From contig JAJVHV010000005.1 of assembly GCA_022072445.1 (NCBI GenBank), positions 62,001-126,000 on the forward strand: DNA of 64,000 nucleotides, given 5' to 3'. This DNA is from Phycisphaerae bacterium. GTDB taxonomy: Bacteria > Planctomycetota > Phycisphaerae > UBA1845 > Fen-1342. The translations under genes were made by a program, and so were the position numbers. The notes under the pieces were generated by a model that made no database searches, was not told the origin of the DNA, and saw only the letters and a list, made by a program, of their open reading frames with translations. Each line of letters starts with the position of its first letter. Position 1 is the stretch's first letter. Below are positions 3,278-14,390 of the stretch, piece after piece.

Positions 3278-3625
3278 ATGGCGAAGAAACGCCCCAGCCT
3301 GCAGCGCGATTTCGGCGCCCGCGTGCGAGATCTGCGGCTCCGTGCCGGTCTGAAGCAGCGGGAGTTAGCCGAACGCTGCGGCAAGGGCTTCGCCATGCAG
3401 AGGGTGGGCCAGATTGAACGCGGCGAGATGAACTGCACGCTCCAGACCATCGCCTCCCTGGCCACGGGGCTGGGGTGTGAGCCGATTGAGTTGTTCCTCT
3501 TCCCCAATGTCGCGGCCACGATCGAAGCGCCACTGGACACCGCACGGCTGGCCGACCTGTGGCGGGCGGCTGATCGTCCAACGCGCCAAAAGATACTGCG
3601 TGTCTTGGCGGAGTTGCTCGGATAG
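3278..3625 (+). CDS. XRE-family helix-turn-helix regulator
   Basis: 115 residues. Residues 14-68 form a Cro/C1-type helix-turn-helix (GARVRDLRLRAGLKQRELAE, then a recognition helix, then QIERGEMNCTLQTIASLATG). The remaining 45 residues are a short helical tail with no sensor or peptidase domain, so it resembles the small repressors and activators at the head of restriction and defence cassettes. The stop codon (3623-3625) runs into AGGAG, the ribosome binding site of the next gene, 14 bases away, so it is almost certainly co-transcribed. It probably controls the operon's own promoter. Confidence 0.85.
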   Translation: MAKKRPSLQRDFGARVRDLRLRAGLKQRELAERCGKGFAMQRVGQIERGEMNCTLQTIASLATGLGCEPIELFLFPNVAATIEAPLDTARLADLWRAADRPTRQKILRVLAELLG

Positions 3626-3639
3626 GAGAAGCGCGGCGC

Positions 3640-4464
3640 ATGGACCTGCGACACGAGCTGCTAGACGGAATAAGGGACCTGTTGGCATCGGCGAGAGAAC
3701 GTACCAAAGCGCTCAAGGCGGACGCAGAAGCTGCCTCGCACACCGAGCGAGTCTGGGAGGCGCTGCTGGACTTCGTGACCAAGTCCTGGCCTCTCCACAT
3801 CCTCGACCTCTTGGACCGGGAGGCACGCACTTTAAAGGCCATGCGTGCCGAGGGACACCCAGCGATTGGCCAAATCGAGTGCTTATATCGTGGCGCGAAA
3901 GAGGAAGCCGACACGATCAAGCGGCGTTACCCCGGTTACCTGGAGGACGCGTGTCGATCCGCAGGATTGGTGCTCGACGCCGAAAGCAGACACCCTGCCT
4001 ACAGTTTGGAGCAGCGGTTCTTCCAGCTCAAAATAGACGAGCGGAAATGGACAGCGCGGCTCTCGGATCACGAAAGTCGTCTAGCCGAGCTCCCCGCCGA
4101 CGTAAACGCTATCGTCGACGTTATCCTAAGAGAACAGAAGCGCATATTCGGTCGGCCGTTTAGCGGCTGCAAGTTTCTGAAGCTCTTGCGCTCCCAGTAC
4201 GTAGCGGTCGCAAAGAAGAACAAACAGCCTGACGGAGCGAGCATCCCGATTCGCCATATTACCCGCCGCCTAGGTAAGAATGCGAAGGGTTTTCGCTCCG
4301 ATGAGTTCCTTGTCGATCTCTCGCGCCTCGTCGAGCAGGGGCCGATGGATATTGACGGCTATCGGCTGGACCTTCAGCAAACAAAAGACACGAACCAAGG
4401 CATGTTGCTCCATGGACCCGCAGGCCGCGGGTACATCGGCTTCGTTGTCTTCCGAAAGGTCTAA
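3640..4464 (+). CDS. Unrecognised protein, second gene of the ATPase/helicase operon
   Basis: 274 residues that I cannot place in a known family. The N-terminal 140 residues are mostly charged helix, plausibly coiled coil around 15-45. The middle (about 135-175) is also helical. The C-terminal 100 residues mix basic helices with a short beta-rich end (GMLLHGPAGRGYIGFVVFRK) and could be a winged-helix or other nucleic-acid-binding fold. No nuclease, methylase or protease motif is evident, and I see no TerB-like sequence, which is what the comparable Shango system has in this role. The start follows AGGAG, and only one base separates its stop from the next ATG, so it is translated with the ATPase. 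Confidence 0.8.
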   Translation: MDLRHELLDGIRDLLASARERTKALKADAEAASHTERVWEALLDFVTKSWPLHILDLLDREARTLKAMRAEGHPAIGQIECLYRGAKEEADTIKRRYPGYLEDACRSAGLVLDAESRHPAYSLEQRFFQLKIDERKWTARLSDHESRLAELPADVNAIVDVILREQKRIFGRPFSGCKFLKLLRSQYVAVAKKNKQPDGASIPIRHITRRLGKNAKGFRSDEFLVDLSRLVEQGPMDIDGYRLDLQQTKDTNQGMLLHGPAGRGYIGFVVFRKV

Positions 4465-4465
4465 C

Positions 4466-5731
4466 ATGGACACACGCATCGTGCCAACGCAGGTTGTCGA
4501 GTCCCTCCGCAAGGGCATTCCTCCCCAGCGCGGCGTCGACCTGTACTCTGTCGGCAACGAAAAACTTATCGACGGCATCAAGAAGTACCATCTCAGCGGC
4601 ATCGGCGATCGGGGGATCATCCGCTTTCTAAGCGGCTCCTGGGGCGCAGGGAAGACGCATTTCTTCCGCCTCTTACGTGAGGTTGCCTTTCAACATGATT
4701 GCCTCGTTTCAAATGTAGAGCTGGACTTGAATAGCGCCGCGCTCAACAAGTTCGAGAAAGTATTCTACGCCATAGTCTCGCATGTTCTGACCCCCACCTA
4801 CTACTCTGAACACGCACTCGTCGAAGCGGCTCCGTTCGGGACTGTCCTGCGGGAATCCCTGGCATATCTTGCGACAGGCACCCGGTCGATTGCCAATGAG
4901 ATTTCCTACGAGCAGTATGCAAGAGCCTCGGAATTGCTAATGGGTAACCACGCTATCGACATTGACTTTAAGAAAATGGTGCAACACTACTGGCACACAT
5001 TTCTGCCCGAGTCAGCCGACCCCGTTGTCGTGGAGCAGACGCGCGGGGAGATTCTCCAGTGGTTCTCTGGCGAAGGAACGGTCGGCCAGTACCGCAAGCG
5101 GTTCGGAGTGAGCAAGATGGTGAGCAAAGAGAATGCAAAGCTCATGCTCCAATCGCTGGCCGGTTTTGTCCGGCAGGCGGGTTACCGCGGTCTCGTGATA
5201 TTGTTCGACGAGGCGGAACAAGCCTACTCGGTGATGCGGAAGTCGGCGCTCCGCGACGCACAGAACAACCTGCTATCACTCATCAACAACATCGAGTCAT
5301 TGAGCGGTCTCTTCCTGCTTTACGCCACAACCCCCGATTTCTACACCGATCCTAAGCACGGTATCGTCACCTACGGCGCCTTGTCCGGGCGCATCGGAAA
5401 GCCGGAGCAACGGCATCCGCGAGCATTGGACACCATCTGGAACCTAGACGCAGTAGAAACGACCTTGACGGACTACCAGGCCGCCGCCAACAAAATTTGC
5501 TCGATCTATGCAACCGCGTTTCCCGATGCCCAGGCAAGCCTGCCGACCGAGGCGGCGGTTCAAGAGACCGTGGCCAAGCTATTTCGCATTCACCCATCAC
5601 TGGCGGCAATTCGCTTCTGGCGGCTACTGGTGAGTGCCGTGATTACGGACCTTGACGACCACCTTGAGGGCGAGGTGCGGGACACGGAGAAACTTTATGA
5701 CGATGTGATGGCTCGCCTGAAGGAGGAGTGA
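4466..5731 (+). CDS. BrxC/BrxD-type P-loop ATPase A (DUF2791 family)
   Basis: 421 residues starting at ATG 4466, with AAGG seven bases upstream. The N-terminus has the family signature VVESLRKGIPP (residues 10-20). Walker A is GSWGAGKT (57-64) and Walker B is LVILFDEA (243-250), followed by a sensor-like LLYATTPDFY around 285. This pattern matches the ATP-binding proteins of BREX (BrxD and the BrxC core) and SngB of Shango. In those systems the ATPase works with a helicase in phage defence; the exact reaction is not settled. It is followed at once by a second, divergent paralogue. No pglZ or pglX is present, so BREX itself is excluded. Confidence 0.88.
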   Translation: MDTRIVPTQVVESLRKGIPPQRGVDLYSVGNEKLIDGIKKYHLSGIGDRGIIRFLSGSWGAGKTHFFRLLREVAFQHDCLVSNVELDLNSAALNKFEKVFYAIVSHVLTPTYYSEHALVEAAPFGTVLRESLAYLATGTRSIANEISYEQYARASELLMGNHAIDIDFKKMVQHYWHTFLPESADPVVVEQTRGEILQWFSGEGTVGQYRKRFGVSKMVSKENAKLMLQSLAGFVRQAGYRGLVILFDEAEQAYSVMRKSALRDAQNNLLSLINNIESLSGLFLLYATTPDFYTDPKHGIVTYGALSGRIGKPEQRHPRALDTIWNLDAVETTLTDYQAAANKICSIYATAFPDAQASLPTEAAVQETVAKLFRIHPSLAAIRFWRLLVSAVITDLDDHLEGEVRDTEKLYDDVMARLKEE

Positions 5732-5733
5732 TC

Positions 5734-6927
5734 GTGAACCTCGCGCAGGCCCAGCGAGTCATCGAGTCGCTAAGGAAGGGCATCCCGCCGGATGGGTTCA
5801 TCCGTCACTTCACCGTTGGGCGCGCATCCGAGGTCGCGCAGCTGACGGAGAGGCTGGACGACATTGTGCCTGGTGCACTGCTGCTTAAGGCCAACTACGG
5901 GTCCGGCAAGACTCACCTGTTACGTTTTGCCAGAGAGTGTGCGCTTGAAAAGGGCTTTGCCGTCAGCACGGTAACTTTGGACTGCAAAGGGGCAGTCCGT
6001 TTCAACCGCATGGACCAGGTGTTTGGAGCCATCTGTCGAAATATTGAGGTTCCTGACGGTCTTGGGCAAAAAGGCATCCGTTCTGTGTTGAACTTTTTAG
6101 TTGAGAAGATCGAGCACGCCAAGTCCGACACGGCGGGTGCATTCTGGCGCGATCTGACGAACAATTGGCGCTGGGATTATTCCGAAGTCCTTGATTCTCC
6201 GGCCGCTTTTGTCGCGCTGCGAGCTTGGGCGACGGGAAATTCCACGGTGCACGACCGGGTCGAAGACTGGTTGCTGTCTCCTTGGAGCTATCGGACTCAG
6301 CGCAGCAAGCTCTATTCTGACCTGATCGGTTCCTTGCGACGCTTCTTTCATGACCCGCGACCTGAGCGGCACTTCTACAGAGATGGAGTGTTTGAGTTTC
6401 ATACGCAAGGCTACGCACAAAGCTGGTCGGCGCTCCGTGACCTTCAACGCCTCTTGTGTGAGTCAGGTCTCAACGGACTGGTGTTGCTATTCGACGAGTA
6501 TGAGGATGTCGTCACAAATCTGAGAAACGTGGCGCATCAGGAGGCGGCATTCTGGAATTTGTTCCAGTTCTACGGCGGCAAGCAGTTCCCCGGTCTGTCC
6601 TTTTATGCCGTCACGCCGGAGTTCGTCGAGAAATGCGTCACGTTGCTAACCGGCAAGGGCCGATGGGACTATGACTATGGGCGATTCAAGGCAATCCCCA
6701 CCTTCCAGATGAGTCCTCTTGACGTGGAAGAGCTGGAGGAGCTGGCCATGCGCATTTTGGAGACGCATGGAATTGCCTACGACTGGGAACCCGACCTGGT
6801 GATGCTCTCCACGGAGCTGGACAAGATCGTTCGCAAGGCGGCTTCCGTGCAGGTTCAAGACCGGGCGCGCCATACGATTATCACCGTTGTGAAGGCGCTC
6901 GACCGCCTCCTTGAGGAGAGTGCATGA
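5734..6927 (+). CDS. BrxC/BrxD-type P-loop ATPase B (DUF2791 family)
   Basis: 397 residues if translation begins at GTG 5734, which lies 7 bases after a strong AGGAGG; GTG 5728 is possible but too close to that site. It shares IESLRKGIPP (residues 10-19) with ATPase A. Walker A is ANYGSGKT (53-60) and Walker B is LVLLFDEYE (249-257), and FYAVTPEF follows at the sensor position. The central regions of A and B differ greatly, so they are old paralogues or partners, not a recent duplication. Both keep the nucleotide-binding residues, so both are probably active and may form a mixed ring. Its end overlaps the helicase start by four bases (ATGA). Confidence 0.88.
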   Translation: MNLAQAQRVIESLRKGIPPDGFIRHFTVGRASEVAQLTERLDDIVPGALLLKANYGSGKTHLLRFARECALEKGFAVSTVTLDCKGAVRFNRMDQVFGAICRNIEVPDGLGQKGIRSVLNFLVEKIEHAKSDTAGAFWRDLTNNWRWDYSEVLDSPAAFVALRAWATGNSTVHDRVEDWLLSPWSYRTQRSKLYSDLIGSLRRFFHDPRPERHFYRDGVFEFHTQGYAQSWSALRDLQRLLCESGLNGLVLLFDEYEDVVTNLRNVAHQEAAFWNLFQFYGGKQFPGLSFYAVTPEFVEKCVTLLTGKGRWDYDYGRFKAIPTFQMSPLDVEELEELAMRILETHGIAYDWEPDLVMLSTELDKIVRKAASVQVQDRARHTIITVVKALDRLLEESA

Positions 6928-9032
6928 GCGGCGTCGACCTGCTCGATCGCCGAGTGGCGACAGCCTTTTATGGCCGATTTGAGTCACTGCGCGAGGCGCA
7001 GCAAGCGGCAATCGAGCCAATCCTGACCGGCCGCAACGTCATCCTGTCCGCGGGCACCGGTTCAGGGAAGACCGAAGCCGTCACGGCCCCGCTCATGAGT
7101 CGTCTTTGGCGGGAAGCCGTCAAGACGGACGGTCTGGTACTGCTCTACGTTGCACCGACGAAGGCCCTCGTCAACGATTTGGAGAAGCGTCTGTATCAGC
7201 CGCTTTACTCCCTCGGGCTACGGGTTGGCGTCAGGCACGGTGACCGGGACGACCTAGCATCCGGTCAAACGGTTCATGTGTTGGTGACGACGCCAGAGTC
7301 CCTCGACGTGATGCTGTTCCGTAAGGACGCGGCCCTCAGTAATGTCCGCGCTGTGGCCATCGACGAGGTACATCTGCTTTACAACACGCAGCGCGGGCTT
7401 CAACTGTCGATCCTGCTCCAGCGGTTGCAGGATCGACTATGCGAGCCTTTCCAGTGGGCGGCGCTCTCTGCCACGATCGGCGATCTGTCCGATGTCCATT
7501 CCTTCCTCGCTGGCAGTGATGAGGCCCCGGTATTCCTGTCGTATCCCTCGCATCGCACGATCGACGCTCAGATCAGACACATCGCAGCCGAGTCCGGTTT
7601 TCTCGACCTGGTTCGCAAGCTAACTGACGGCAGGCCGACGAAACTGCTGGTGTTTGCCAACTCGCGGAAAGAATGTGAACGGCTTGCCGGCGTCCTCCAG
7701 CACGACCCCTCGCTGCTACACGCCGTCTTCGCGCACTATTCATCGCTGTCCCCGGACGTCCGCCTCGATACGGAGAAGAAGTTTGCCGCTTCCAACACCG
7801 CCATCTGCCTGGCGACGAGCACCCTTGAGCTGGGTATTGACATTGGCGACATTGATGCGGTCCTATTGTGGGGTGCGCCCGGGGGCGTGGAATCGTTCCT
7901 TCAACGAGTCGGCCGCGGCAACAGGCGGGCGCACAAAACGAACGCGGTCTGCCTGATCCCTGACACCTCGGAATCGGTCGGATGGGATGCGCTCCGCTTC
8001 GCTGCACTCGTTGATGCGGCCCGTAAGGGCGAGCTTCCACAGCGACGCCCCTACGAACTTTACGGGGCTGCCGCACAGCAGATGCTCAACGTGATCGCCT
8101 CGGACGGTGGACGGTTTACGAAGGTGGCCGACTTGTGCCAGCTCGTCCGACACAAGCCGTACCTGGGTCGCCCGACCGTTGAATCCATCCTCGCGCAACT
8201 GGCAGCAAACGGCCACCTCCAGGCACATGGCTTCAAGAACCAATACGGGGCCGAAGAGCCGCTTCATGAACTTGTTGACTTCCAAATGATTTACGGGAAT
8301 TTCGCGGCCGGCTCTCAGACTGTGGACCTCTTCCACGGAGCTAAGCGGCTCGGTGACGTGCCTGCGACCAACCTGCTTCGGATACACCGTGGCTCCGAGG
8401 TGCGCTTCGCTGGGAAGTGCTGGCGAGTGCAGAAGGCATCACGCGACAAGATATTGCTAACGCCGACGCGGCCTGGCAATGCCATGGACTTCACCTACAC
8501 CAGCGGCGGAGTGCAGACGGATAGTTTTGTCGCCAACCGGGTCTGGCAACTCCTTCATTCCCACCAGTTCCCAGAGGACCTGTTCGCACTGTCGCTGCGG
8601 CGCACCGTGATAGAAGCGAGAGCCAGGCTTCGGGCGGCCTGTACAATGAATCAGATACCATATGCCCGATCGACTGATGGCATTCGATACTTTACGTTTT
8701 CCGGCTACTTGGTGAACAAAGCCGTTGGCCTGATCTCGCGGAAGGCAACGTTCAAGGCAAGGGAGGCGTCGCTATTGGTGCCTTCACCCATTGACTGGGC
8801 TACGATTCCACCCGAGCCGACGGCGTATGAAGGCGTATTCCCGTCGCTCTTCGAGGAGTCGTCGGAGCAGTCCCTCTATCAGGCCCAACTTCCGGCGGAA
8901 CTACAGCTTCGAGAATACCTGGAAGACTGGCTCAAGGATCAGGCGGTTGCCGATGCGCTTGTCAGGCTCGTCCGATCGACTCCCGTAGCAGTGGATCCGG
9001 CGTCAGTGGCGTTCTTTGCCGGTGCTTGCTGA
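6924..9032 (+). CDS. DEVH-box superfamily 2 helicase, Lhr/BrxHI-like
   Basis: 702 residues. The motor motifs are clear: Walker A SAGTGSGKT (42-50), a Ia-type YVAPTKALVNDL, a Ib-type TTPESLD, DEVH (147-150), motif III SAT, VFANSRKE opening the second RecA domain, and motifs V/VI (LATSTLELGIDIGDID, then FLQRVGRGNRR). This is the Lhr-like pattern of BrxHI and SngC. The last 300 residues are a variable region without the Zn-cluster of larger DUF1998 helicases. GAGGAG precedes the ATG, and the start overlaps the upstream stop (ATGA), so it should be made in fixed proportion with ATPase B. It probably translocates on or unwinds invading DNA. Confidence 0.9.
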   Translation: MSGVDLLDRRVATAFYGRFESLREAQQAAIEPILTGRNVILSAGTGSGKTEAVTAPLMSRLWREAVKTDGLVLLYVAPTKALVNDLEKRLYQPLYSLGLRVGVRHGDRDDLASGQTVHVLVTTPESLDVMLFRKDAALSNVRAVAIDEVHLLYNTQRGLQLSILLQRLQDRLCEPFQWAALSATIGDLSDVHSFLAGSDEAPVFLSYPSHRTIDAQIRHIAAESGFLDLVRKLTDGRPTKLLVFANSRKECERLAGVLQHDPSLLHAVFAHYSSLSPDVRLDTEKKFAASNTAICLATSTLELGIDIGDIDAVLLWGAPGGVESFLQRVGRGNRRAHKTNAVCLIPDTSESVGWDALRFAALVDAARKGELPQRRPYELYGAAAQQMLNVIASDGGRFTKVADLCQLVRHKPYLGRPTVESILAQLAANGHLQAHGFKNQYGAEEPLHELVDFQMIYGNFAAGSQTVDLFHGAKRLGDVPATNLLRIHRGSEVRFAGKCWRVQKASRDKILLTPTRPGNAMDFTYTSGGVQTDSFVANRVWQLLHSHQFPEDLFALSLRRTVIEARARLRAACTMNQIPYARSTDGIRYFTFSGYLVNKAVGLISRKATFKAREASLLVPSPIDWATIPPEPTAYEGVFPSLFEESSEQSLYQAQLPAELQLREYLEDWLKDQAVADALVRLVRSTPVAVDPASVAFFAGAC

Positions 9033-11648: not shown

Positions 11649-12992
11649 ATGAAACAGCAGATTGGGGCGTGGTCATACACGCCCGAAGAAGACACTCGAA
11701 GGAAGGGTGCAAAATCCCGTGGAACATATCGCCAGAGCGAATATGCTCGAACCAAGCCGGAGGGCGGATTCTGCTTCATCCCGGCAATGGTCATTATCGG
11801 CGCGTGGTGGGCCTTCCGAGCCCGGTTTGTGACGCTGGGAGACCTGCGAGTATGGCTTGCTTTCTTCGAAGTCGTGGCGAGGCGCTGCGGCGATCGCCCC
11901 AATCGTTCCCTGAATTCCGTGGAACATGAGCTGATCGACCTCGTCGACGGGTCAGAAGCACAGGTTCGAACATCCATTCGGCGGCTTGAGCGAGCCGGTC
12001 TCTTGCTGCGGAACCGAACAACGTCTCGCTGGTATCGGCTCCCGGAGCCGCCGGCCGCTGACGAACAGGAGAATCTCGCAGCCACAATTCGAGGCGTCGA
12101 GAACCATCGCCGGCGGGCGCCTGTCCCGCGACGGGTCATTCGCTACCTGTGCCGCGCGACTCGTCCCGTGCTGTGGGCGACCGTGCTCGGACACGTGCTC
12201 CGTTGCCTGTACTACCGCAACGGGCAATGCGCGCCGGATGGGCGGTGCAAGTCCTCGTGGGTTGCCGACGTGTTCGAGGTAGATCCACGCAACGTCAAGG
12301 CGGCTCGTCGCGAACTGGTCGAGTTGGGCGTACTCATCATGGAACCGACCGATCAGCGCTCGATGAACCGTTTTGGTCCGCGTGTTCGGTTCAACCTTGA
12401 ATGGAACGGCGTTCCTGCCTGCCGGCGACCACCACCCCCTCGGCCTAGCTTCACCGCCGGATCACCACCCCCTAAGAAAGACAGGGAACTCGCTTCGCGA
12501 TGGGAAGACCAGAAACCGTGGCCGGCGGCTGGTGTTCGTGAACGGTCGCCACGTTGGCGGGTCGCACCGTCAGACCTCGATTCACCAAACGGGCTCGGCA
12601 AGCTGTTTGAACAGCTCGTCGCGTGCGGCGCCTGCAAGGCGGGAGAGGCTGCTCGCTTGAATCTCTTCGCGGCGGCAGCCCGGACGCGGCGCGTCGCTAC
12701 GCGAAATCCGGCTGGTTTTCTGGCCGCGCTGGTCCGCTGGAAGCACTGGGACTTCGCAAGCCATGCCGACGAAGAGGCTGGGCGGGCCTGGCTTATCGAG
12801 CTTCGAAAACAGCGTTACGCACTTGGGCAGGTGAGCGAACCACAGACCAGTCGCGATGTTTCGCGACCACAGTCCCGCGAGCCTGTTCGCGCGGCAAACA
12901 TGCTGCAGGCTGTGCTGAGCTCGACGACAGCCTCCGCTCGATTCATCGCGCCCAGCTCCCGTGCTGAAACTGAAGCCGCAATCAGGAAGTGA
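11649..12992 (+). CDS. Winged-helix plasmid replication-like protein
   Basis: 447 residues. Residues 60-140 form a likely winged helix (HELIDLVDGSEAQVRTSIRR, then LERAGLLLRNRT and a wing). A second one follows at about 185-250 (SSWVADVFEVDPRNVKAARR, then ELVELGVLI). Two tandem winged helices are typical of RepA/RepB-type plasmid initiators, although the helper sequence elements that would prove this are not visible. The middle is proline-rich and the C-terminal third is helical and basic. It starts opposite parA and ends 11 bases inside the convergent integrase gene. A transcription factor of the element is the main alternative. Confidence 0.5.
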   Translation: MKQQIGAWSYTPEEDTRRKGAKSRGTYRQSEYARTKPEGGFCFIPAMVIIGAWWAFRARFVTLGDLRVWLAFFEVVARRCGDRPNRSLNSVEHELIDLVDGSEAQVRTSIRRLERAGLLLRNRTTSRWYRLPEPPAADEQENLAATIRGVENHRRRAPVPRRVIRYLCRATRPVLWATVLGHVLRCLYYRNGQCAPDGRCKSSWVADVFEVDPRNVKAARRELVELGVLIMEPTDQRSMNRFGPRVRFNLEWNGVPACRRPPPPRPSFTAGSPPPKKDRELASRWEDQKPWPAAGVRERSPRWRVAPSDLDSPNGLGKLFEQLVACGACKAGEAARLNLFAAAARTRRVATRNPAGFLAALVRWKHWDFASHADEEAGRAWLIELRKQRYALGQVSEPQTSRDVSRPQSREPVRAANMLQAVLSSTTASARFIAPSSRAETEAAIRK

Positions 12993-14211
12993 CATCGCGT
13001 GAAAGCTGGTGACGGACCCACTCCACGACCTTGCGGAACTCCGGCCGGACAGGCCGCATGTAAGCATCCGCCATGTCAGAACTGGAAGCGTGCCCCAGCC
13101 ATCGCTTCACGTCGCTGATCGACGTGCCCGGCCGCGAGCCGAACTCTGTTGCGCCGAGGTGTCTTAGCGTGTAGAACCCTGGAATGGTCTCTTTCGATTC
13201 GCCGACCTTCGTCCGCAGCTTGTCCCACCACTGCGTGACCGCGTTGCCCCGATGGTGGACGAGAGCAACGCCGGTGCGAGTGACGAATAGCAGCTCACCA
13301 ACCGGCCGCTTGACGGCCTCTTGGTACTTCGAGACGAGGGACCACACGCGCGGCGGCGTGGAACCGTATCGCTCCACACCCGTCTTCGCACGACGCAGAT
13401 CGTAAGAGTCCTGGTCGATCTGGCCCACGCGAACTACCGCGAGGTCCTTGGCGCCCAGGCCGAGCCCGATGCCAAGCCAGATCATCGTCTTTCCCCGCAG
13501 GTCGGCGCCGTTGATCATCTTCTGAAGGAGCTCAACGGTGGGGAGCGGCCGCTCAGGTGTTGGTGTTCCGTGGGCAACGTCCCTTGAGTCCCAATTCCAC
13601 GTCAGCATCTGGCGGCCGTGTTCGGGCCGGCCGGCGCGGTCGATGATCGCCTTGACAATCTGAAGCCGCTTGGCGACCTGCGAGTCGGAGTAGCCGGATT
13701 TGACGACGTGCTGGTTGAATGCTTCGACGTCATCCATTGAAAGGTCGCACAAGCGCATCCGCGATACGGCTCCGACGCCGTGTCGTGCATTGATGAATTC
13801 GAGGATGTCGCGGATGACCTTCGCCCGGTCGCGAAACACAGGCGCCGCGATGGTTCCCCGGCGACGCGGTTCATCGGGCTTGCGGATGCGAAGCCGCTCA
13901 GACTCCTTGAGCCCACTGGCGACCTCCAGCAGGCTCCCGGAGAGGGCCTTGCCGCTTGGCTTCCGCTTTCGCGCCGGCTCCACCTGCGTGGGGAGTTTCC
14001 CGGGGCCGTTGCCGCCGAGCTTCTCAGCAACCCAGGCGTGGTAGAGTGCGAGGGCCTCCTTCTCGCGCTCGCGTTCGACTATCCTGAACCGGTGACGACG
14101 CGAGTGGCCGGTCTGCGGGTCGCGGTAGCTCACGTGCCAGCCGACGTTCCGGGTGGCGTCGAACTTGAGCTTCGGAATGCGGGTCCGCGTCCGTCGACGC
14201 CGATTGACCAT
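12982..14211 (-). CDS. Tyrosine-type site-specific recombinase (integrase)
   Basis: 409 residues. The first 80 are basic, as in arm-type DNA-binding domains. Residues 140-220 look like a SAM-like core-binding domain. The catalytic domain ends with LRH (in FYTLRHLGATEF), LGH and the nucleophile Tyr in MADAYMRPV. The first catalytic Arg is not obvious (GLGLGAKDLAVV stands where GxRxxE is usual), and the His of box II is replaced by Tyr. I recall similar changes in other planctomycete integrases. The gene begins 107 bases before tRNA-Gly, the classic target of such enzymes, and marks the right edge of the island. Confidence 0.88.
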   Translation of the reverse strand: MVNRRRRTRTRIPKLKFDATRNVGWHVSYRDPQTGHSRRHRFRIVEREREKEALALYHAWVAEKLGGNGPGKLPTQVEPARKRKPSGKALSGSLLEVASGLKESERLRIRKPDEPRRRGTIAAPVFRDRAKVIRDILEFINARHGVGAVSRMRLCDLSMDDVEAFNQHVVKSGYSDSQVAKRLQIVKAIIDRAGRPEHGRQMLTWNWDSRDVAHGTPTPERPLPTVELLQKMINGADLRGKTMIWLGIGLGLGAKDLAVVRVGQIDQDSYDLRRAKTGVERYGSTPPRVWSLVSKYQEAVKRPVGELLFVTRTGVALVHHRGNAVTQWWDKLRTKVGESKETIPGFYTLRHLGATEFGSRPGTSISDVKRWLGHASSSDMADAYMRPVRPEFRKVVEWVRHQLSRDVTS

Positions 14212-14303: not shown

Positions 14304-14318
14304 CGAATAACCGCGTTT

Positions 14319-14390
<72 letters not shown>

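Follow-up and report, generated by a model that had tools for sequence, protein, structure and literature searches.

The window analysed here, a stretch of 64,000 nucleotides from a Phycisphaerae bacterium, contains directly upstream of two ATPase genes and a helicase gene an open reading frame for a 274-residue protein, which the initial annotation had regarded as unrecognised, as locked into the operon and as the component that would define a new system. This raises the question of what this protein, called P0001 in the following, contributes to such an operon. A comparison of related loci revealed that P0001 is the signature protein and the first gene in order of a four-gene cassette, and its membership in this cassette is firm. 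The genes concerned are listed with their positions in the window.

3278 to 3625, + strand: Xre-type HTH protein of 115 aa (Pfam HTH_31, 4.9e-11), which ends 14 bases before P0001
3640 to 4464, + strand: P0001, 274 aa, open reading frame of 274 codons from ATG 3640 to TAA 4464, with a predicted N-terminal helical region (about residues 1-97), a predicted middle alpha/beta domain (98-172) and a predicted C-terminal winged helix (173-274)
4466 to 5731, + strand: ATPase A, 421 aa, BrxC_BrxD family (Pfam BrxC_BrxD, 1.1e-45)
5728 to 6927, + strand: ATPase B, 399 aa, second ATPase of the BrxC_BrxD family (Pfam 1e-25; PADLOC BrxD 9.3e-22)
6924 to 9032, + strand: SF2 DEAD/DEAH helicase of the BrxHI/SngC type, 702 aa (PADLOC BrxHI 5.2e-96)

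P0001 (about 30 kDa) is a genuine gene and not a chance open reading frame, because homologues with 32-59% identity over nearly the entire length occupy the same operon place on eight genome contigs and two plasmids. The described spacing to ATPase A was also confirmed: one base separates the stop of P0001 (end 4464) from the ATG of ATPase A (4466). Further downstream, ATPase B overlaps the 3' end of ATPase A, and the ATG of the helicase at 6924 overlaps the stop of ATPase B. The listed start of ATPase B is GTG 5728, and GTG 5734, located behind a Shine-Dalgarno-like stretch, is probably an equally good start. The Xre-type gene in front of P0001 is a possible local regulator and an inconstant neighbour, as among the compared loci only one other homologue was found (L014/L005, which are one and the same place). 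In the order-mate, this homologue with 57% identity (L014:19264-19596) is not located upstream of the cassette but 3.9 kb behind it.

Searches with P0001 in Pfam, NCBIfam, PADLOC-DB, PHROGs and the PDB sequences gave no significant match, and the nine close members including P0001 gave nothing significant in Pfam or PADLOC either (best Pfam E 0.016, with the families scattered). TerB was not matched in Pfam at E <= 1 by any of the nine family members, and the family searches did not indicate a nuclease or other enzyme motif in P0001. Relatives were found by tblastn in 72,556 plasmid records, namely on Aulosira laxa NIES-50 plasmid3 (51%) and on Desulfomonile tiedjei pDESTI.01 (42%). In a pattern-limited scan of 84,980 genomes, eight of the 94 matching stretches were P0001 relatives, from Sumerlaeota, Desulfobacterales, Atribacteria, Microcoleus, Anaerolineales, Nostoc, Armatimonadetes and Planctomycetaceae, the last one on a contig (G109) within the window's own order. 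As far as the contigs reach, each close relative shows the order P0001 - ATPase A - ATPase B - helicase.

The family extends considerably beyond these close relatives. Using the ATPase B profile, a second cassette was identified in the home phylum (G305; 2/392 genomes at E <= 1e-20), and hhalign identifies its first gene, 298 aa in the same position, as a distant homologue of P0001 (96.2%, E 2.5e-9). The P0001 profile together with G305 and a second copy in the Desulfobacterales genome G506 detected 13/395 genomes in the phylum of the latter, and an enlarged profile of 22 rows detected 18/392 genomes in the home phylum; these counts include the genomes that started each search. The ATPase B profile matched 3/339 cyanobacterial genomes. 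An independent link comes from L054, a distant member that belongs to the extended branch described below: with it as query, tblastn retrieved the Desulfomonile P0001 gene at 2e-7. Members of the superfamily range down to about 17% identity. Another remote homologue of 281 aa (L023:56-901), the second of the Desulfobacterales genome, lies beside genes that look phasin-like by eye; with the contig end only 56 bases away, it offers no further context. On viral contigs, no P0001 relative was found among the 83 and the 16 pattern matches, the phage records searched contained none, and plasmid searches with the far members L022 and L061 and with L023 gave no match.

The gene order was compared over 43 loci, 14 close and 29 distant, each with a P0001-superfamily gene. 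In 41 of them, the next gene downstream, on the same strand, is ATPase A; ATPase B is present in 38 and the helicase in 32, with gene labels from profiles that were partly built from those loci. The 16 loci L083-L098 are an independent test of the order, as the profiles held none of their own sequences: here, ATPase A is the next gene in 16/16, ATPase B is found in 14/16 and the helicase in 11/16, and the two loci without ATPase B stop at the contig end. The complete cassette (P0001-like gene, ATPase A, ATPase B and helicase on one strand), which we take as the criterion for the superfamily, is present in the window and in 32 of the 43 loci. Among the 11 loci without helicase seven end at a contig end (L007, L010, L023, L062, L086, L091, L093) and one is near it (L095); L065 is broken by transposase genes, L098 has both ATPases without a detectable helicase, and L063, a lone weak P0001 match with housekeeping-looking neighbours and no cassette, may be a false positive, which was retained in the denominators. 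In the cyanobacterial locus L065 (8950-13451) ATPase B is split by a transposase-like gene with another one adjacent; the gene located 361 bases upstream of P0001 encodes, as judged by eye, a type I restriction methylase. The same gene order recurs across several bacterial phyla.

P0001 was modelled with AlphaFold from nine sequences (mean pLDDT 90.4, pTM 0.78). In the model, residues 3-107 are helical, and a four-stranded sheet (120-152) is followed by a helix (155-170). The C-terminal part (176-273) is predicted to fold as helix - short strand - helix - helix - strand - strand, with helices 176-193, 204-214 and 220-233, the short strand 202-203 and strands 241-248 and 265-273, which corresponds to the alpha-beta-alpha-alpha-beta-beta topology of a winged helix. 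The structural comparison with VIA-align is in line with this prediction: 37 of the 50 matches listed fall on residues 171-274 (best Z 7.1, rmsd 3.2, 77 aligned), among them MCM, linker histone, SarX, RctB, Cdt1 and PhoP, and most of the structures matching this region are winged-helix proteins. Below Z 8 a shared arrangement may mean little, and as every Z value stays below 8, we claim the topology for P0001 and not a closer relation. Foldseek with the whole model gave no match at E <= 0.001 in the PDB or among viral models, and TerB is not among the 50 VIA-align matches listed. Thus, the statement that P0001 shows no motif that can be named holds for the sequence searches, whereas the model gives its C-terminal third a name. 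The middle domain modelled alone reached a pLDDT of 88.8 and was left without assignment, because its common two-layer alpha/beta arrangement matches unrelated proteins. Its lookalikes, which were rejected, are a Mediator subunit, frataxin/CyaY, the MotA C-terminal domain, type III secretion chaperones and CapZ, all with Z <= 7.5.

The conserved C-terminal end had been proposed as a binding surface. Conservation in this region was confirmed, since G254, L257, G267 and F271 are invariant in 12/12 close rows and all lie within about residues 254-273. In the model these are wing residues, so that the stretch is better described as the wing of the predicted winged helix and could plausibly serve in binding, most likely of DNA. 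D154, R172, Y187, F223, D226, R229 and F271 are near-invariant across the 22 superfamily rows. Conserved basic residues of the winged helix (R205, R210, R229) are only suggestive of DNA binding, and a winged helix can also mediate protein contacts.

A protein with a predicted winged helix, encoded as the first gene of an operon and about 30 kDa in size, could also be a local transcription factor, which autoregulates the ATPase/helicase operon and stays outside the machine. We consider this improbable, as linkage to ATPase A in 41/43 loci, with members down to about 17% identity, fits better with a structural partner than with an exchangeable regulator. The conservation is also not restricted to the DNA-binding part, because the mean top-residue frequency over 12 close rows is 0.67 in the middle domain versus 0.72 in the winged helix (0.48 in the N-terminal helices), and with the Xre-type gene a separate candidate regulator already adjoins P0001 in the window. 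Furthermore, the identity matrix of P0001 tracks those of ATPase A and the helicase over eight complete loci (r = 0.89 and r = 0.90; ATPase B r = 0.74). All six gene pairs correlate (r 0.66-0.90, Mantel p about 0.0005-0.002), and the weaker correlations all involve ATPase B. The covariation with both ATPases, which had been suggested as a check, is thus present as inheritance of the genes as a unit, not as residue contacts. Taken together, we are fairly confident that P0001 is a structural subunit rather than a regulator.

The two ATPases match each other in a profile comparison (99.9%), both have intact Walker A and Walker B motifs, and both score better against BrxD than against SngB in PADLOC (BrxD 7.6e-36 and SngB 7.7e-26 for ATPase A). 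With 117.7 and 76.4 bits they fall below the cut-off of 350 of the BrxD equivalog NF033438 in NCBIfam. ATPase A contains Arg309 and Arg319, both invariant in 10/10 rows and located between sensor 1 and the next strand, whereas ATPase B (9 rows) has no invariant arginine at the place of these two. BrxD has been described as an ORC-Cdc6 AAA+ ATPase, which may load or activate BrxHI, with an arginine finger at the base of strand 5 (PMC12839542). From our alignment in combination with this description we infer that R309 and R319 are candidates for the arginine finger and that A and B may form a mixed assembly, in which one subunit has and the other lacks the expected arginines. Among the distant cassettes, two loci (L022:3431-4879 and L062:1-1086) encode ATPases with an N-terminal stretch containing an H-x-x-Y-G-x-G pattern, which by eye resembles the Tudor-like module of UvrD/PcrA C-termini, and L062 has a third BrxD-like ATPase.

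In the helicase, motifs I, Ia, II, III, V and VI were inspected and are intact, and besides BrxHI it is matched by SngC (1.2e-79) and DpdJ (2.3e-37) in PADLOC. SngC, BrxHI, DruE and DpdJ have been reported to form what may be a separate SF2 clade, with antiphage functions as its defining feature (PMC12278908).

As P0001 stands at the same relative position as SngA, the TerB-like protein of Shango, the cassette could be a divergent Shango, in which P0001 functionally substitutes for SngA in its sensor/TerB role. The genome itself allows a direct comparison, as it contains a separate complete Shango (L018:4277-10302, contig C6) with SngA (801 aa, 7.3e-57 in PADLOC), a SngB-like ATPase of 455 aa in between, assigned by BLAST and position, and SngC (751 aa, 1.6e-235). 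ATPase A is 23% identical to this SngB-like ATPase and the helicase 32% over 350 residues to SngC, which documents relatedness, but the presence of a separate Shango in the same genome speaks against mere divergence, and the cassette profiles detected no P0001 match in this locus. In profile comparisons, P0001 and SngA are without relation: hhalign gave 0.1-0.3% against a six-sequence SngA alignment and 0.2% against SngA of the same genome, and the PADLOC SngA profile gave no hit in the cassette. The cassette also has two ATPases of the BrxC_BrxD family instead of one of the SngB type and thus differs from Shango in more than the first gene, and the helicase scores better against BrxHI than against SngC. 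For these reasons, a divergent Shango has little probability. The components of BREX and the remaining ones of Shango were tested in the same way, and BrxA, BrxC, PglZ, PglX, SngB, SngC and BrxHI gave 0.1-1.5% as single-sequence targets, with the positive control at 96.2%. The position at the place of SngA and the distinctness of the system, as proposed by the initial annotation, are both borne out by these results.

Additional information on the substrate comes from an extended branch (L053-L059). In L056 the helicase gene is truncated at the contig end. In the six other loci, the helicase (1109-1112 aa, or 1790-1960 aa) is extended by a region that shows the pattern GxPxL...GD...KWxVAFxAxLL together with a C..C..F..C cluster, and we take this region to be of the Cas4/RecB type. 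Pfam scores for this region are weak and below the cut-off (Cas_Cas4 0.0028 and 0.012, PDDEXK_1 0.007). A catalytic-looking D-x-K lysine is present in 5/6 loci and missing in L055. An AAA_11/AAA_12 SF1 helicase with MkoA/DpdJ-like scores comes next, either fused (L059) or as a separate gene (L054). These relatives look as if built for DNA processing, and this speaks for DNA as the target in the window's cassette, too.

P0001 of the window shares 59% identity with the Sumerlaeota copy versus 32% with the order-mate, and ATPase A 75% versus 49%, which argues that the cassette moves between phyla as a unit. In the window it is part of a putative mobile element with the following features.

Contig C4:7919-76355 (window -54081 to 14355): putative integrated conjugative-type element of 68.4 kb, bounded by 38-bp direct repeats
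12982 to 14211, - strand: likely tyrosine recombinase at the right end of the element, about 108 bases from tRNA-Gly
14318 to 14355, + strand: 38-bp direct repeat, 5' half of tRNA-Gly(CCC), with the second copy 68.4 kb upstream (C4:7919)

The site of the element is the anticodon half of tRNA-Gly(CCC), and we propose the repeat as attachment repeat of the cassette-carrying element; at the second repeat copy no tRNA gene was found. The recombinase, which had no Pfam match at E 0.01, is presumably a tyrosine recombinase by motif and position. The element also carries ParA, a TrwC relaxase, a TrwB-like coupling protein and a second defence-like set (L015:6061-18604 and L019:646-8687, C4:32061-52687) with an HmaA-like helicase (3.7e-160), a DUF1156 methylase with HmaB-like score (1e-118), GmrSD_N, a DUF499 ATPase, a Strawberry-notch-type helicase and two small proteins, one of them PDC-M48B-like. 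This set resembles the BREX-related DUF499 systems of PMC12839542. Between both sets lies a gene for a 1301-aa protein with CHAT, weak NACHT and TPR repeats (L006:9212-13117), a candidate STAND/caspase-like effector.

Defence genes were also found beside other copies. BREX genes adjoin the cassette in L003 and L009: in Aulosira it is located directly behind PglX-PglZ-BrxD-BrxHI (BrxHI by annotation and BLAST), and on the Atribacteria contig L009 it is convergent with BrxA-PglZ-BrxC. Desulfomonile pDESTI.01 has AbiEi/AbiEii in its annotation. The flanks were scanned with family libraries for the window's element, L003, L009, L010 and one L004 gene and read by eye elsewhere, which revealed no clear defence gene in L011, L013, L014 and L064.

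Based on the SF2 clade (PMC12278908) and the Shango activity (PMC10250203), together with mobility, patchy distribution and neighbours, we think it likely that the cassette serves in defence, and it probably works in the manner of Shango and BrxD-BrxHI. That it is instead a machine for DNA repair, replication restart or maintenance of mobile elements is improbable, for although AAA+ ATPases, an Lhr/Ski2-type helicase and the Dna2-like nuclease-helicase of one branch are repair-type parts too and the cassette sits on plasmids and an integrated element, its sparse occurrence (2/114 genomes of the order for the close family, 18/392 of the phylum for the superfamily) is unlike housekeeping, and linkage to BREX and restriction genes suits it poorly.

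As the best explanation of the whole we favour, with modest confidence, that P0001 acts as the adaptor through which a defence complex of AAA+ loader and helicase binds DNA. The predicted winged helix of P0001 would hold DNA, while its N-terminal helices and middle domain would dock on both BrxD-like ATPases. The mixed ATPase assembly would load or activate the BrxHI/SngC-like helicase on invading DNA, in the succession initiator, loader, helicase, and the helicase would then unwind or strip the DNA of the invader. The compact form in the window is without a nuclease of its own and would depend on host nucleases or a neighbouring system; the related branch would use the fused Cas4/RecB-like nuclease and the SF1 helicase instead. 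Such a cassette would spread horizontally and serve against phages or plasmids. The specific loader mechanism is a more tentative part of this explanation. A wider reading, which is speculative and rather unlikely, is an unnamed multi-phylum immune system that would use the logic of replication initiation as a weapon, with a winged-helix initiator, an ORC/Cdc6-like heteromeric AAA+ loader, an SF2 helicase and nuclease arms that can be exchanged, absent from the compact form and of the Cas4/Dna2 type in the extended one. If P0001 decides where the loader assembles, it would be the subunit that recognises the invader.

In the literature searched, in which subscription journals and preprints are thinly covered, and in databases up to PADLOC-DB 2.0.0 the cassette is undescribed, and it may be described elsewhere. 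It is a distinct variant by virtue of its signature protein, its second ATPase and the branch with a nuclease, and the parts apart from P0001 belong to known families. The cassette is related to, yet distinct from, Shango and BREX. With Shango it shares the small operon, in which a first-gene protein is followed by a BrxD-like ATPase and a BrxHI/SngC-like helicase. For Shango, antiphage activity has been shown (PMC10250203) and an occurrence in genomic islands with an antiplasmid system is reported (PMC11096173). In the home phylum, the P0001 superfamily occurs in 18/392 genomes versus 7/294 for SngA, in different samples and with different cut-offs. BREX type 2 has likewise BrxD-family ATPases and a BrxHI-family helicase, for which a loader/helicase relation is proposed (PMC12839542). 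In contrast to BREX, the ATPases of the cassette lie far below the NCBI BrxD cut-off, P0001 is without counterpart among the BREX components compared, and PglZ, PglX, BrxC/PglY and PglW were not found by PADLOC/Pfam among the cassette proteins or the element open reading frames scanned. Cas4/Dna2-type nuclease-helicases, with which MkoA and DpdJ share parts, are resembled by the extended branch with its predicted nuclease and SF1 helicase, whereas these parts are missing from the compact cassette of the window. With the P0001 profile, this rather frequent cassette, which has carried no label so far, can now be annotated. Shango, BREX type 2 and Dpd each have one or both of two components, a BrxD-like ATPase and a BrxHI/SngC/DpdJ-like helicase, and how these act together is not understood. 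The four-gene system isolates this ATPase-helicase module, with a constant predicted DNA-binding subunit of its own and a nuclease branch, and thereby makes the loader-helicase idea directly testable.
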